From Oceanibaculum nanhaiense (GTDB taxonomy: Bacteria; Pseudomonadota; Alphaproteobacteria; Oceanibaculales; Oceanibaculaceae), in NCBI RefSeq assembly GCF_002148795.1, contig NZ_MPOB01000002.1, positions 310,001-374,000 on the forward strand: a stretch of 64,000 bases of DNA, written 5' to 3'. Below the pieces are notes generated by a model that was given only the letters and a program-made list of their open reading frames with translations, did not search any database and was not told the DNA's origin. A program made the translations under genes and the position numbers. Below, one piece after another: positions 8,619-53,756 of this stretch; the stretch's first letter is position 1, and each line of letters opens with the position of its first letter.

Positions 8619-8939
8619 TCAGCCGGTCTTGCGGGATTTCTGCGCCTCGATATAGGCGCGCAGCACGGCGTTGATCCGCGTCTGGTAGCCGCGTCCCTGG
8701 GCCTTGAAAAAATCGACTACGTCCTGATCGAGGCGGATGGAGATCGCCGCTTTTTCCTGCGGCCAGAGCAGCCGCGCCTTGGCGAACCACTCCTTGTCCA
8801 GCAGGGGGGCGGCGTCGGGGTCTTCCGCGACCGCCTTCTCGATATCCTCGTCGGTCAGCGCATCGACCCGCGCCCAGTCGGTCATGCCGCCCTTGCGGTC
8901 ACCGAGCTTGCGTCGCGTGATGGTATCGCTTTTCCTCAT
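8619..8939 (-). CDS. brnA: BrnA-family antitoxin
   Basis: DNA-binding antitoxin for the BrnT ribonuclease. The 106-residue protein has the family core TDWARVDALTDEDIEKAV in the toxin-binding N-terminal half and a C-terminal ribbon-helix-helix domain from AAISIRLDQDVVDFFKAQG to TRINAVLRAYIEAQ. The chosen start overlaps the brnT stop by 41 bases; an internal ATG at 8885 would abolish the overlap but shorten the N-terminus compared with relatives. In the known type II pair, BrnA binds BrnT and represses the shared promoter. Confidence 0.88.
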   Translation of the reverse strand: MRKSDTITRRKLGDRKGGMTDWARVDALTDEDIEKAVAEDPDAAPLLDKEWFAKARLLWPQEKAAISIRLDQDVVDFFKAQGRGYQTRINAVLRAYIEAQKSRKTG

Positions 8940-9177
8940 TTTTCCTTGCGCGCCGGGCCGAAATCAGCCGGCGCACCTCTCCTCTCTCCGTAAAGACGAC
9001 GGTTATCAACCGTCCGTCCAATTGACCGACCGCAACGAAACGCTGTTCGCCATGCTGCTTCTGGGTACTGGGCCAGCACAGCACGAAATTGGCGAAAATG
9101 TCGGTCGCATCGATAAAGTCGATGCCATGTTTCTTAAGATTGCCGAGGCGCTTTTCCTCGTGCCACTCGAACTGCAT
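8899..9177 (-). CDS. brnT: BrnT-family ribonuclease toxin
   Basis: Type II toxin of the BrnT family, a small RelE-fold ribonuclease that blocks translation. The 92-residue protein starts at the ATG at 9177, with GGAG upstream. It shows the family opening FEWHEEKRLGNLKKHGIDF, the middle QRFVAVGQLDGRLITVVFTERG and the basic end RRLISARRARKNEEKRYH, which carries the conserved Arg and Tyr of the active site. It is the first gene of the pair, the usual order. The pair sits between thyA and folA, a chromosomal site rather than a plasmid. Confidence 0.9.
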   Translation of the reverse strand: MQFEWHEEKRLGNLKKHGIDFIDATDIFANFVLCWPSTQKQHGEQRFVAVGQLDGRLITVVFTERGEVRRLISARRARKNEEKRYHHATQAR

Positions 9178-9268
9178 CAAGATTACTCCGGAGAATTTGC
9201 GTCATCTTTCTGCATCCCTGTTCACGTTGTGACCTCTGGTGCGGCCTTTAGTTTGCCGCTTGCCAAGA

Positions 9269-9301: not shown

Positions 9302-10096
9302 TCACACCGCCACCGGGGCCTTGATGTGCGGGTGGGCCTGGTAGTTCTCCAGCGTGAAATCCTCATAGACGAAGTCGAACAGGCTGCCGACATCCGGGTT
9401 CAGCCGCATGGTGGGCAGCGGATAGGGCGTGCGGGTCAGCTGCAGATCGGCCTGTTCCACATGGTTGGCATAGAGATGCGCGTCGCCGAAGCTGTGGATG
9501 AATTCGCCCGGCTTCAGACCGGTCACCTGCGCCACCATCAGCGTCAGCAGCGCGTAGGAGGCGATGTTGAATGGCACGCCCAGGAAGATGTCGGCGGAAC
9601 GCTGGTAGAGCTGGCAGGACAGTTTGCCGTCCGCCACATAGAACTGGAACAGGCAATGGCAGGGTGGCAGCGCCATGCGGCCGACATCGGCGACGTTCCA
9701 GGCGCTGACGATCAGGCGGCGGGAATCTGGGTTGGTCCTGATCTGCTCGATGAGCTGGCCGATCTGGTCGATGCTGCCGCCATCCGGTGTCGGCCAGGAG
9801 CGCCACTGATGGCCATAGACCGGCCCCAGCTCGCCCTTCTCATCGGCCCAGTCGTCCCAGATCGACACGCCGTTGCGCTTTAGATAGGCGATGTTGGTGT
9901 CGCCCTGCAGGAACCACAGCAGCTCGTGGATGATCGACTTCACATGCAGCTTCTTGGTGGTGACCAGCGGGAAGCCCTCGGCCAGGTCGAAGCGCATCTG
10001 GTAGCCGAACACGCTGTAGGTGCCGGTGCCGGTGCGGTCGGCCTTGTAGGTGCCGGTCTGGCGGACATGGCGCAGGAGATCGAGATAGGCTTGCAT
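9302..10096 (-). CDS. thyA: Thymidylate synthase
   Basis: Makes dTMP from dUMP using methylene-tetrahydrofolate. The 264-residue protein is the short, E. coli-like form. It has the N-terminal phosphate-binding [16 protein letters not shown], the catalytic Cys146 in [12 protein letters not shown], the dUMP-binding [18 protein letters not shown], and the HLYANHVEQ segment. The end PVAV is the usual ThyA C-terminus that closes over the active site. The brnT promoter begins just downstream of its stop, so the gene ends its own transcript or reads into brn. Confidence 0.97.
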
Positions 10097-10311
10097 GGCA
10101 GTGTCTTGGGCGGTGTCTTGCGTGTTGCGGATCGGCGAACGCTATATCTTGTGGTGGAGCCTATCACAGCCCCAACAAAAAGTAAGTGCTAACCCCTTTC
10201 GTTCCGCCCCTGGAATACCTATTATCTAGGCGTCGGGAAACCGGCTATGGGGATAAACCTTTCGTGGAATAAGCATTACGGACCCGGGGGCGGTACCCGG
10301 CGCCTCCACCA

Positions 10312-10361
10312 GTTTCTAAGATGCGCCCGTTTGTAACACAGGCAAGCCGGCGCATCCCTCT
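10312..10361 (+). other. Intervening segment of the tmRNA precursor
   Basis: Fifty bases between the CCA end of the acceptor piece and the 5' GGGGGCG of the coding piece. In permuted tmRNAs this segment is removed, leaving two RNAs held by pairing. It contains GATGCGCC / GGCGCATC (10320-10327 and 10349-10356), an 8-bp hairpin stem that could present the processing sites. Confidence 0.75.
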
Positions 10362-10446
10362 GGGGGCGAAATAGGATCGACGTGTGTAGTAAAGACGTAA
10401 GTTTCTCCCGGCATGGTACCACCGTTATCGGGCCAAGCTAGTAGTT

Positions 10447-10485
10447 GCGAATGACAACTCCAAGCAGGTCGCCCTCGCCGCCTAA
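10447..10485 (+). other. tmRNA proteolysis-tag reading frame
   Basis: Twelve codons and TAA encode ANDNSKQVALAA. The first codon GCG follows GTAGTT, the normal resume-codon context, and the trapped ribosome adds one Ala before it. The A-N-D-N start is the SspB-binding end and the terminal VALAA is the ClpX/ClpA-recognised end. It is not an independent gene. Confidence 0.92.
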
Positions 10486-10686
10486 GTGCGGTTCTGGGTA
10501 ACCACCCTTAAGTCCTTATCTTGCTAAGGTAGGGCGCGGTTCGGAGGGCACCGGGCAACAGAAGCCCTCCACTTACTTTCGTTGCCGCATGGCCCCATTC
10601 CCGATCTTGGTGCCGAGCGTGCTGGCCGCAATCCGCCGGCCGGCCCTTTCGGGCAGGCGGGCGATACAACCGGGCGATATCGACAG

Positions 10687-11247
10687 GTGCAGGATCAGTT
10701 GAGATACGACAGGCTGGTTGAGGAGGCGCTGCGCAGCGTCGTCCGGACCGCGCTGACAGAGGCCGCGACCAACGGCCTGCCGGGCGATCATCATTTTTAC
10801 ATCACCTTCAAGACGCATCTGGCCGGCGTGGATATTCCCGCCTTTCTGCGCCAGAAGTACGAGGACGAGATGACCATCGTCCTGCAGCACCAATATTGGG
10901 GGCTGAAGGTGATGGAGGAGCGCTTCGAGGTGCTGCTCAGCTTCAACGATGTGCATGAGAAGCTGTCGATCCCGTTTGCCGCCATCACCGGTTTCGTCGA
11001 TCCGTCGGTGAAGTTCGGCCTGCAGTTCCAGGTGGCGACTGACGCCGAGCAACAGCCGAGCGCGCCGGAAGGCGTCGCCGCTTTCACGCCTGCTGGCACA
11101 CACGCTGGTGCCCCCGCTGGCACACCCGCCGGGACGCCAAATGGGCGGGCCGAGGGCGATGCGCCGGATGATGCCGAGGCTGCCGCTTCCGCCGAGACGG
11201 AGAATGGCGCCAACGTGGTGACGCTGGATAAATTCCGCAAGAAATAG
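10687..11247 (+). CDS. sspB: SspB-type ClpXP adaptor
   Basis: Adaptor that binds ssrA-tagged proteins and delivers them to ClpXP. From the GTG at 10687 the protein is 186 residues; the longer frame from TTG 10582 would begin right at the tmRNA end and adds unrelated sequence. The alphaproteobacterial SspB core is clear: LRYDRLVEEALRSVVRTAL, DHHFYITFKTHLAGVDIP, DEMTIVLQHQYWGLKV and VDPSVKFGLQF. The linker (about 120-170) is Ala/Thr/Pro/Gly-rich with short repeats (AGAPAGTPAGTP). The end NVVTLDKFRKK is the ClpX-binding tail. Its position about 100 bases after ssrA places the tag and its adaptor together. Confidence 0.93.
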   Translation: MQDQLRYDRLVEEALRSVVRTALTEAATNGLPGDHHFYITFKTHLAGVDIPAFLRQKYEDEMTIVLQHQYWGLKVMEERFEVLLSFNDVHEKLSIPFAAITGFVDPSVKFGLQFQVATDAEQQPSAPEGVAAFTPAGTHAGAPAGTPAGTPNGRAEGDAPDDAEAAASAETENGANVVTLDKFRKK

Positions 11248-11281: not shown

Positions 11282-13321
11282 CTACTGGGCTGCAACCGCC
11301 TGGTCGGCCAGCCTGCCGGTCAGTTCCTGCAGATGATCGAAGCGCTGGCTATAGCTGCCCACGCCAAGCGTCGCCGAGCGCAGCTCGATGATGAGGTCGT
11401 GGATTTCCGCCTGCGGCATGAAGCACTGCACCTCGTCCCAGCCCGGCCAGCCGGCGCGCGAATCATAGCCCAGAATCTGCCCGCGCCGCCCGGTGATGAG
11501 GCGCTGCACCTTTGAAGTGAACTCGTTCGGCACCGCAATGGCGACCGCCAGGATCGGCTCCAGCAGCACCGGATCGCATTTCGCCATGCCCTCCGCCATC
11601 GCCTGCCGCGCCGCCAGCTTGAAGGCCATGTCTGAACTGTCCACGCTGTGGAACTGGCCGTCCTGCAGCGTCACCTGGAAATCGACCACCGGATAGCCCA
11701 GCGGCCCATGCGGCATGAACTCGCGCACCCCTTCCTCGACCGAGGGGATGTACTGGCGCGGAATGGCGCCGCCGACGATCTTGTCCACGAACTGGAAGCC
11801 CGATCCGCGCGGCAGCGGCTGGATGGCGATCTTCACGTCGGCGAACTGGCCATGGCCGCCGCTCTGCTTCTTGTGCCGCGCATGCTGTTCGGTCTTGCGG
11901 CGGATGGTTTCCTTGTAGGGTACCTGCGGGCGGGCCAGCGTCACTTCCAGATTATACTTGCTCTTCAGCCGGTCGGCGGCGATCTGCAGATGGATGTCGC
12001 CCTGGCCGGACAGCAGCAGCTCGCCGGTATCCGCGTCATGCCGGGTGGTCAGCGACAGGTCTTCCTCCACCAGCTTCGCGAGCGCGCCCGACAGCTTCAC
12101 CTCGTCATTACGGTTGGCGGCGTGCAGCGCCATGGCATAGACCGGGGCCAGCGGTTCCGGCCAGGCCGGGTCGTCGGTCATCCTGTCGGCCGGGGTCAAA
12201 GCGTCGCCGGTGGCGACCGGCTCCATCTTGCCCATCGCCACCACATCGCCGGGGCCGGCTTCGGATATCTTCGCGAGGTTCGATCCCAGCAGATGATAGA
12301 GGCCGCTGATGCGCGCCTGGCCGTGCGGGCCGGTCAGCATCTGCCCGTCCTTCACGCCACCGCGCCAGATCCGGGCCAGCGACAGCTTGCCGGTATGAGC
12401 AAGGTGCAGCGTCTTGAACACCTGCAGCAGCGGTTCGCCCTCCGGCGGGATCGCCTTGCGCCCGGCGGTATGGGCCGCGTCCGACACTTCGTGCCGCAGC
12501 GCCTTCAGCAGGCGGTGGACGCCGTGATTCTTCTCCGCCGCACCGAGAAACACCGGCACGATCAGGTCGGATTGCAGATCCTTCGCCAGCGTGCGGTAGA
12601 TGTCGTTGGTTTCCGGCACCATGTCTTCCAGCAGCTGTTCCAGCAGCCCATCGTCGAAATCGGCCAGTGCCTCCAGCATTTCGCCGCGCGCCTCCTGCTC
12701 GCGCGGGCGGGACTCGTCGGGAATCTGGATCAGGTCGGACGGCTGGCCCGGCTTGTAGCGGTAGGCCCGCTCGCTCGCCAAATCGACATAGCCGGTCACG
12801 CGCTCGCCCTCGCGGATCGGCACCTGGCGCAGCACCAGCGGCCGCCGGGAATGCGCCTGCAGGGCCGCCAGCAACTCGCGCACCCGGCCCACCGCCTCGT
12901 CCATGCGGTTCACGAACAGCAGGTGCGGGATATCCTCGTCATCCAGATATTTCAGGATCGGCGCGACAGTCAGCGCGCGTGCCGGGTCGGCCTCGCACAC
13001 CACCACCGCGACATCGGCCACCTGCAGCGCGTTGCGGTAATCCTGCGCGAATTCGATGGAGCCGGGGCAGTCCACGAACACCCAGGCTTCGTCCATATAG
13101 CGGGCATGCGCGATGTTGGGTTCGACGCTCATCTGCCGGGCGCGCGCCTCGGGCGAGGCGTCGCCGGTGCTGTTGCCATCCTTCACGCTGCCCTGCCGGG
13201 GGATGGCGCCGCAGGCGGAGAGCAGGCTTTCCAGCAGGGACGTCTTGCCGCTGAGATAAGGGCCCACCAGCACGGCGCAGCGCGGCGTGTCGATGGGCGT
13301 GCGCTCGGTTCTTGCGTTCAT
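11282..13321 (-). CDS. EF-G-like translational GTPase (paralog of FusA)
   Basis: A 679-residue protein with the whole EF-G domain plan but with changed GTPase motifs. The ATG at 13321 has an excellent RBS (GGGAGGTG). G1 is GPYLSGKT (20-27) instead of AHIDAGKT, G3 is DCPG (84-87) instead of DTPG, and G4 is NRMD (138-141) instead of NKCD. Domain IV (from about 450: RPQVPYKETIRRKTE, then GHGQFADVKI) is present, ending with the domain V repeat. These proteins are common in alphaproteobacteria beside a genuine EF-G; their role is not established. It is not part of a ribosomal operon here. A function as the main elongation factor is unlikely. Confidence 0.9.
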   Translation of the reverse strand: MNARTERTPIDTPRCAVLVGPYLSGKTSLLESLLSACGAIPRQGSVKDGNSTGDASPEARARQMSVEPNIAHARYMDEAWVFVDCPGSIEFAQDYRNALQVADVAVVVCEADPARALTVAPILKYLDDEDIPHLLFVNRMDEAVGRVRELLAALQAHSRRPLVLRQVPIREGERVTGYVDLASERAYRYKPGQPSDLIQIPDESRPREQEARGEMLEALADFDDGLLEQLLEDMVPETNDIYRTLAKDLQSDLIVPVFLGAAEKNHGVHRLLKALRHEVSDAAHTAGRKAIPPEGEPLLQVFKTLHLAHTGKLSLARIWRGGVKDGQMLTGPHGQARISGLYHLLGSNLAKISEAGPGDVVAMGKMEPVATGDALTPADRMTDDPAWPEPLAPVYAMALHAANRNDEVKLSGALAKLVEEDLSLTTRHDADTGELLLSGQGDIHLQIAADRLKSKYNLEVTLARPQVPYKETIRRKTEQHARHKKQSGGHGQFADVKIAIQPLPRGSGFQFVDKIVGGAIPRQYIPSVEEGVREFMPHGPLGYPVVDFQVTLQDGQFHSVDSSDMAFKLAARQAMAEGMAKCDPVLLEPILAVAIAVPNEFTSKVQRLITGRRGQILGYDSRAGWPGWDEVQCFMPQAEIHDLIIELRSATLGVGSYSQRFDHLQELTGRLADQAVAAQ

Positions 13322-13480
13322 GGCCACCTCCCTTGGCAGATGCTTCCTTGGCAAATGCAGGCGGCCCGCTGTCTCCGCTATCCCGGGGCGCCCCGGATGA
13401 TGCGGAGCGGGGACGCTTCTTATGCAGCGTCCATGTCAGCAGGCCGGGGGAGGGGATGCAAGAAAGAAAATAAGAAAAAT

Positions 13481-52465: not shown

Positions 52466-53631
52466 TCTGCGGCAATCTCGGACGTTGCCGCTGACTTAGC
52501 GGCGAAGCGCGCCAGCGTAAAGGGGGCGGCTTCGGAAAGTGTCCTGCCGGTCAGGATCTGCCGGGCGATGGCGTCGGCGGTGATCGGCGCCAGCAGGATG
52601 CCGTTGCGGTGGTGGCCGGTCGCCACCAGCAGCCCGTCGAGCCCGCTCTCGCCCAGGATCGGCGCGTCGTCGCGGCTGGTCGGGCGGAACCCCACCCACA
52701 TCTCCTCGATCGGCAGTTCCTCAATGGCGGGGACCGCCCGCCAGGCGGCGTCCAGCAGCGCCAGCACGCCACCCGCCGTCATGTGCGGGTCATAGCCCTT
52801 TTCCTCGACGGTGGCGCCGACGATCAGGCGGCCATCGGCGCGCGGCACCAGATAGATTTTCGGTGCCCACAATACGGATGTGGCCAGCGGCGCTTTCGGG
52901 TCCATGCGCAGGCTCAGCATCTGGCCTTTCACCGGGCGCACCGGCGGCAGCGCGATGTCGGGCAGGCCGGGGATGTCGCGCGACCAGGAGCCGGCGGCCA
53001 GCACCACGATATCGGCCCTGTGGAGATTGTCGCCGATCCTAACGCCGACAGCGCGGCCGGCCTCGGTCTCGATGCCGGTGACCGGGCTGTTCTCGTGCAG
53101 CACCCCGCCTGCCTTCGCGAAGGCCGCCTGCAGTGCCGCGGCCAGCTTGCGGTTCTCGACCTGATGGTCATCGGGCGCCCAGACGGCACCGGTGATGCCG
53201 GGCCGCAGATAGGGCTCGCGCTTCCGGGCCTCGGCGCCGCTCAGCCAGTCGACGGCGAGGCCAAGGTCGCGCTGGAATTCGTAGGTGAAGCGCAGCTGCT
53301 CCGCCTCGTCGCGATTGGTGGCGGCGACCAGCGTGCCGGTCTCGCGATATTCGACATCGATGCCCGACGCCGCGTTCAGCTCGGCGGCGAAGCCGGGCCA
53401 CAGCTTCTGGCTGGCCAGCGTCAGCGGCAGCAGGGATTCCTCGCCGGGCTCGGTTTCGGCATTGGCGGCCAGCATGCCGGCGGCGGCCCAGCTGGCGCCG
53501 CGCCCGGCCTGGCCGCGCTCGAACACGGAAACGCGGCAACCGGCCTGAGCCAGCCGCCAGCCGATGCCAAGGCCGCAGACGCCGGCACCGATGATGGCGA
53601 CGGATGGTTTGCCGGGTAGTTTAGGTGACAT
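52462..53631 (-). CDS. thiO: Glycine oxidase
   Basis: FAD enzyme that oxidises glycine to dehydroglycine for thiazole synthesis. The 389-residue protein has the dinucleotide motif AIIGAGVCGLGIGWRLAQAG, ASWAAAGMLAANAETE and the C-terminal TGHHRNGILLAPITADAIA, typical of ThiO rather than other DAO enzymes. It is the first gene of the thi operon, 6-9 bases after the TPP riboswitch, whose 3' end overlaps its RBS AGGGAG. Confidence 0.94.
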   Translation of the reverse strand: MSPKLPGKPSVAIIGAGVCGLGIGWRLAQAGCRVSVFERGQAGRGASWAAAGMLAANAETEPGEESLLPLTLASQKLWPGFAAELNAASGIDVEYRETGTLVAATNRDEAEQLRFTYEFQRDLGLAVDWLSGAEARKREPYLRPGITGAVWAPDDHQVENRKLAAALQAAFAKAGGVLHENSPVTGIETEAGRAVGVRIGDNLHRADIVVLAAGSWSRDIPGLPDIALPPVRPVKGQMLSLRMDPKAPLATSVLWAPKIYLVPRADGRLIVGATVEEKGYDPHMTAGGVLALLDAAWRAVPAIEELPIEEMWVGFRPTSRDDAPILGESGLDGLLVATGHHRNGILLAPITADAIARQILTGRTLSEAAPFTLARFAAKSAATSEIAAE

Positions 53632-53637
53632 GGTAAC

Positions 53638-53724
53638 GCTCCCTTCGCTGGCATGATCCAGATCAGGTTCAATGGGTATGTTCTCAGCCGGATCGGCTCA
53701 TCCCGCCCCGGCACCCCAGCTACA
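53638..53724 (-). promoter_or_regulatory. TPP riboswitch
   Basis: Read on the minus strand: GGGGTGCCGGGGCGGGATG, CTGAGAACATACCC, GAACCTGATCTGGATCATGC, AGCGAAGGGAG. These are the universal THI-element blocks in order. The terminal AAGGGAG is also the thiO RBS, so TPP binding probably blocks translation initiation rather than acting by a terminator. Confidence 0.95.
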
Positions 53725-53756
53725 CTATGCCATGTAATGGTTCTGCCATGAAATGC

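Follow-up and report, generated by a model that had tools for sequence, protein, structure and literature searches.

In E. coli, sspB is located behind sspA and away from ssrA, and in the alphaproteobacteria SspB docks on the AANDN end of the tag. Caulobacter was the first organism in which a two-piece tmRNA was demonstrated (Keiler et al. 2000, as cited in PMC3985003), and the corresponding source for the alphaproteobacterial SspB is Lessner et al. 2007 (as cited in PMC3985003 and PMC8138137). We analyzed a 64,000-nucleotide stretch of Oceanibaculum nanhaiense DNA, called the window throughout, in which a tmRNA gene had been predicted next to the gene for its own adaptor. The region is very probably a standard alphaproteobacterial trans-translation locus, with the following features.

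9302..10096, minus strand: thyA, divergent from ssrA (PF00303, E 3.8e-128).
10193..10573, plus strand: permuted two-piece tmRNA gene ssrA, of the alpha_tmRNA type (RF01849, 274.3 bits; ARAGORN).
10219..10311, plus strand: acceptor piece, the 3' half of the tRNA-like domain, with an encoded CCA at 10309-10311 (covariance alignment and sequence; the 5' limit, 10219, is the ARAGORN start rather than a mapped mature end).
10312..10361, plus strand: intervening segment with a strong hairpin (fold), predicted to be removed by analogy with the two-piece family.
10362..10573, plus strand: coding piece, opening with GGGGGCG (10362-10368), which pairs with CGCCTCC (10301-10307), G3-U70 included (covariance, sequence).
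10447..10485, plus strand: tag reading frame, encoding ANDNSKQVALAA and closing with TAA; the tag is AANDNSKQVALAA once the charged alanine is counted (ARAGORN, sequence).
10574..10686, plus strand: ssrA-sspB spacer, without a consensus promoter or intrinsic terminator, conserved in the genus mainly beside the sspB start.
10687..11247, plus strand: sspB, an SspB-alpha type ClpXP adaptor of 186 aa with a likely GTG start (TTG 10699 possible; PF04386; PDB 2nys/2qas/2qaz).
11282..13354, minus strand: EF-G-like GTPase gene, convergent with sspB (EFG_IV, GTP_EFTU, EFG_III, EFG_C).

The original prediction was of a permuted two-piece tmRNA, and a low score on a permuted covariance model would have spoken against it. 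We found that the score is high: a covariance search of the window with the Rfam model alpha_tmRNA (RF01849; curated cut-off, 50 bits) gave a full-length match at 10193-10573, spanning model positions 1-355, with 274.3 bits and an E value of 9.1e-79. ARAGORN predicts a permuted tmRNA at 10219-10576 on the plus strand with the predicted tag, ANDNSKQVALAA, and RF04321, a newer general permuted model, matches 10249-10485 with 147.5 bits. The window copy is the single RF01849 match in the genome assembly. Reading of the sequence placed the CCA, the 7-bp stem, and the G3-U70 wobble exactly where they had been predicted. The acceptor 3' strand is CGCCTCC-A-CCA at 10301-10311; CGCCTCCACCA terminates at 10311 and the 5' acceptor strand begins at 10362, and the two strands form seven pairs. 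The CCA thus precedes the 5' acceptor strand, which is the permuted order of alpha_tmRNA. As expected for that family, the tag frame closes with hydrophobic-Ala-Ala and a stop, and SmpB is encoded in the same genome, by a single-copy gene on another contig (PF01668, E 7e-56, at G000:C4). The 50-nt segment between the two pieces forms a single hairpin in the fold (-21.8 kcal/mol). In three congeners, the tmRNA is conserved, its tag is identical to that of the window, and the gene order is the same. The alternative, that the tmRNA is degenerate or matches only by chance, is ruled out by the covariance score, and we give it next to no probability: the match is full length, the tag, CCA, and stem are intact, and the gene is conserved with an identical tag in the three congeners.

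The gene 3' of ssrA is sspB. Its product has a single PF04386 domain (E 2.7e-45; 154.6 bits versus a cut-off of 27), and the nearest solved structures are 2nys, from Agrobacterium, and 2qas/2qaz, which we take to be Caulobacter SspB. The start is likely GTG 10687 because the QDxxRYD motif is conserved with the Agrobacterium protein; an in-frame TTG at 10699 is an alternative, and the stop ends at 11247. The mechanical start of the open reading frame, TTG 10582, was rejected, as it lies just 9 nt past the tmRNA model and conservation is absent upstream. From the model end at 10573 to GTG 10687 the gap is 113 nt, in line with the predicted distance of about 100 bases. The protein ends in VVTLDKFRKK, a conserved tail that presumably binds ClpX; the strict tail pattern is present in 25 of 38 relatives, and most of the others are off by one or two residues.

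Several other features of the window were noted in passing. The match of the EF-G-like GTPase gene to domain 2 is weak. A BrnT toxin and BrnA antitoxin pair lies at 8619-9180 on the minus strand between folA and thyA, and it looks like an insertion because folA directly adjoins thyA in the relative L007. There is also a TPP riboswitch at 53621-53728 on the minus strand (68.7 bits).

Judging from the known family, cutting of the ssrA transcript would yield two pieces, acceptor and coding, which would pair into an alanine-charging tRNA-like domain. Together with SmpB on a stalled ribosome, this RNA would append AANDNSKQVALAA. SspB would then bind the AANDN end and deliver the protein to ClpXP, which would read the LAA end, as is established for the family. 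The sspB mRNA would probably often arise by read-through of the ssrA transcript.

The prediction had also held that the tag and its reader are in one locus and had called for a comparison of this adjacency among relatives. We ran the comparison across the whole class, placing tmRNA and sspB in 228 alphaproteobacterial genomes whose tmRNA match is strong and counting the genes as directly adjacent when sspB lay 0 to 350 nt downstream of ssrA on the same strand. We found sspB directly downstream of ssrA in 161 of the 228 genomes and within 10 kb on the same strand in 188. Intervening sequence separates the genes in 27 genomes, with sspB following within 10 kb; sspB is far off or on the other strand in 10, on a different contig in 21, and was not found in 9. 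When both genes are on one contig (n = 198), they are directly adjacent in 81% of genomes and in the same order within 10 kb in 95%. The median gap from the end of the tmRNA model to the first residue of the SspB profile was 108 nt in one of the two samples and 92 nt in the other. Thus, neither this genome nor Rhodospirillales is special in its adjacency, which is usual across Alphaproteobacteria, and the survey excludes an arrangement peculiar to the genus or order. The order is conserved across the surveyed genomes and is therefore a class-wide inherited trait, which probably goes back to an early alphaproteobacterial ancestor. Every checkable detail of the original prediction was correct. 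We did not find a published statement of ssrA-sspB synteny in the open-access literature, and we claim no priority; the 2007 work of Lessner et al. may mention the neighbourhood.

In six of the surveyed genomes (G007, G125, G206, G160, G216, and G158), 2 to 8 kb separates ssrA from sspB, and some of these have close relatives in which the genes are adjacent. Since tmRNA genes are known integration sites, it is possible that the DNA between the genes in these six genomes consists of islands.

A promoter and a terminator cleanly separating the two genes would have told against the prediction. Between window positions 10000 and 11400 we saw neither a consensus promoter nor an intrinsic terminator, in a scan that is weak in this high-GC genome (13 terminator-like sites over 20 kb of the window versus 10.3 in shuffles). 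Among 40 related loci, a terminator-like hairpin is present in the spacer in 3 and absent in 37. Within the genus, the spacer is poorly conserved, save mainly just before the sspB start. Read-through from ssrA into sspB appears plausible from these sequences, and we lean, if only somewhat, toward a true two-gene transcription unit in which tag and reader would both be made from the ssrA promoter. Such a unit is suggested by a short same-strand spacer lacking a consensus terminator or promoter and by class-wide conservation, but Rho-dependent ends are invisible to a consensus scan that is itself weak.

The competing explanation is that the adjacency has no functional meaning, the genes being inherited single-copy neighbours with sspB under its own promoter. 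We judge this a serious contender with a little less than an even chance of being right. It would account for the genomes with intervening sequence and those with the genes apart, in which both genes are kept, for the strong variation of the spacer among close relatives, and for the terminator-like site between the genes in a few lineages. However, it does not fit well with the shared order and strand, within 10 kb, seen across many families in 188 of the 198 genomes with both genes on one contig, with the absence of thyA and like neighbours from many related flanks, or with spacers in related loci that are often less than 60 nt. Adjacency is dispensable for function, because in 27 genomes the genes are interrupted by other sequence and in 10 they lie far from each other or on opposite strands. 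As for the two-gene unit, co-transcription of tag and reader lends itself readily to a test, since the order is conserved and no terminator is obvious.

We read the tags of 123 genomes that have SspB and of 16 that lack it and carry a permuted tmRNA. An N-x-N motif is present in 121 of the 123 SspB-bearing genomes (the exceptions are G008 and G098) versus 5 of the 16 without SspB. At the level of genomes, which are not independent, the Fisher p value of the association is 5e-11. Of the 123 tags from SspB-bearing genomes, 102 open with (A)ANDN, and N-x-N is present in 19 of the remaining 21. The divergent tags hold 33 instances of N-x-N, against 12.0 ± 2.8 after shuffling within tags, and none of the other N-N spacings from 1 to 8 shows comparable enrichment. 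The 11 SspB-less genomes lacking N-x-N belong mainly to two families, with every one of the five members of f43 (ANDD, AKRD, AKSD) and of the five members of f87 (ANES, ANDK), and a single genome from f29, whose three members read ANDN, ANNN, and AKNN. An SSU tree did not resolve the losses of SspB in f29 and f87 as separate events: the two join with a support of 47, and f43, which yielded no SSU match, is outside the tree. The five SspB-less genomes that keep N-x-N include three singletons, and since these are singletons, recent loss of SspB or an incomplete assembly is possible in them. The pattern of co-loss agrees with, and supports, N-x-N as the putative adaptor-docking site.

Other tags and tmRNAs also depart from the common form. 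Families f51, f72, and f127 are without SspB and have a one-piece tmRNA (RF00023) with the tags AEDNF, ADDNF, and ANNDF. A one-piece RF00023 tmRNA rather than a permuted one is seen at loci L100, L101, and L102 (in G074, G156, and G235, genomes placed in the same class), and SspB was not found in these genomes. Tags with repeated AANDN (e.g., ANDNVAFVAANDNAVVAVRAAA) were seen at L039, L042, L047, L048, L098, and other loci, several of them in Rickettsiales-titled genomes, and long tags elsewhere among small genomes carry N-x-N in two or three copies.

It is a tentative proposal, which we would put at somewhat under even, that ssrA and sspB are one coevolving transcription unit across Alphaproteobacteria, in which N-x-N is kept by SspB and decays without it and the repeats possibly serve as multiple docking sites. 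What may hold some modest interest for a specialist is confined to the coevolution of the motif with its adaptor and to the repeated motifs. The class comparison offers sequence evidence, independent of structures, that SspB exerts selection on N-x-N, and the SspB-less genomes with altered tags and the genomes with repeated docking motifs are natural experiments.

Taken by itself, the locus is ordinary for an alphaproteobacterium and shows nothing of a new kind. Like alpha_tmRNA (RF01849), which it matches over the full length, the window gene is permuted, its encoded CCA coming ahead of the 5' acceptor strand, and it has the G-U wobble in the acceptor stem and the tag in the coding piece; it differs only in detail, in its 50-nt intervening segment and its tag, ANDNSKQVALAA. 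Like the alphaproteobacterial SspB structures (2qas/2qaz, 2nys), the window protein has one SspB domain that spans the entire conserved core and a C-terminal FRKK tail; its Ala/Pro-rich linker before the tail is longer. In E. coli, ssrA and sspB have the same roles, tagging and delivery to ClpXP, but the tmRNA is in one piece and the tag is AANDENYALAA.
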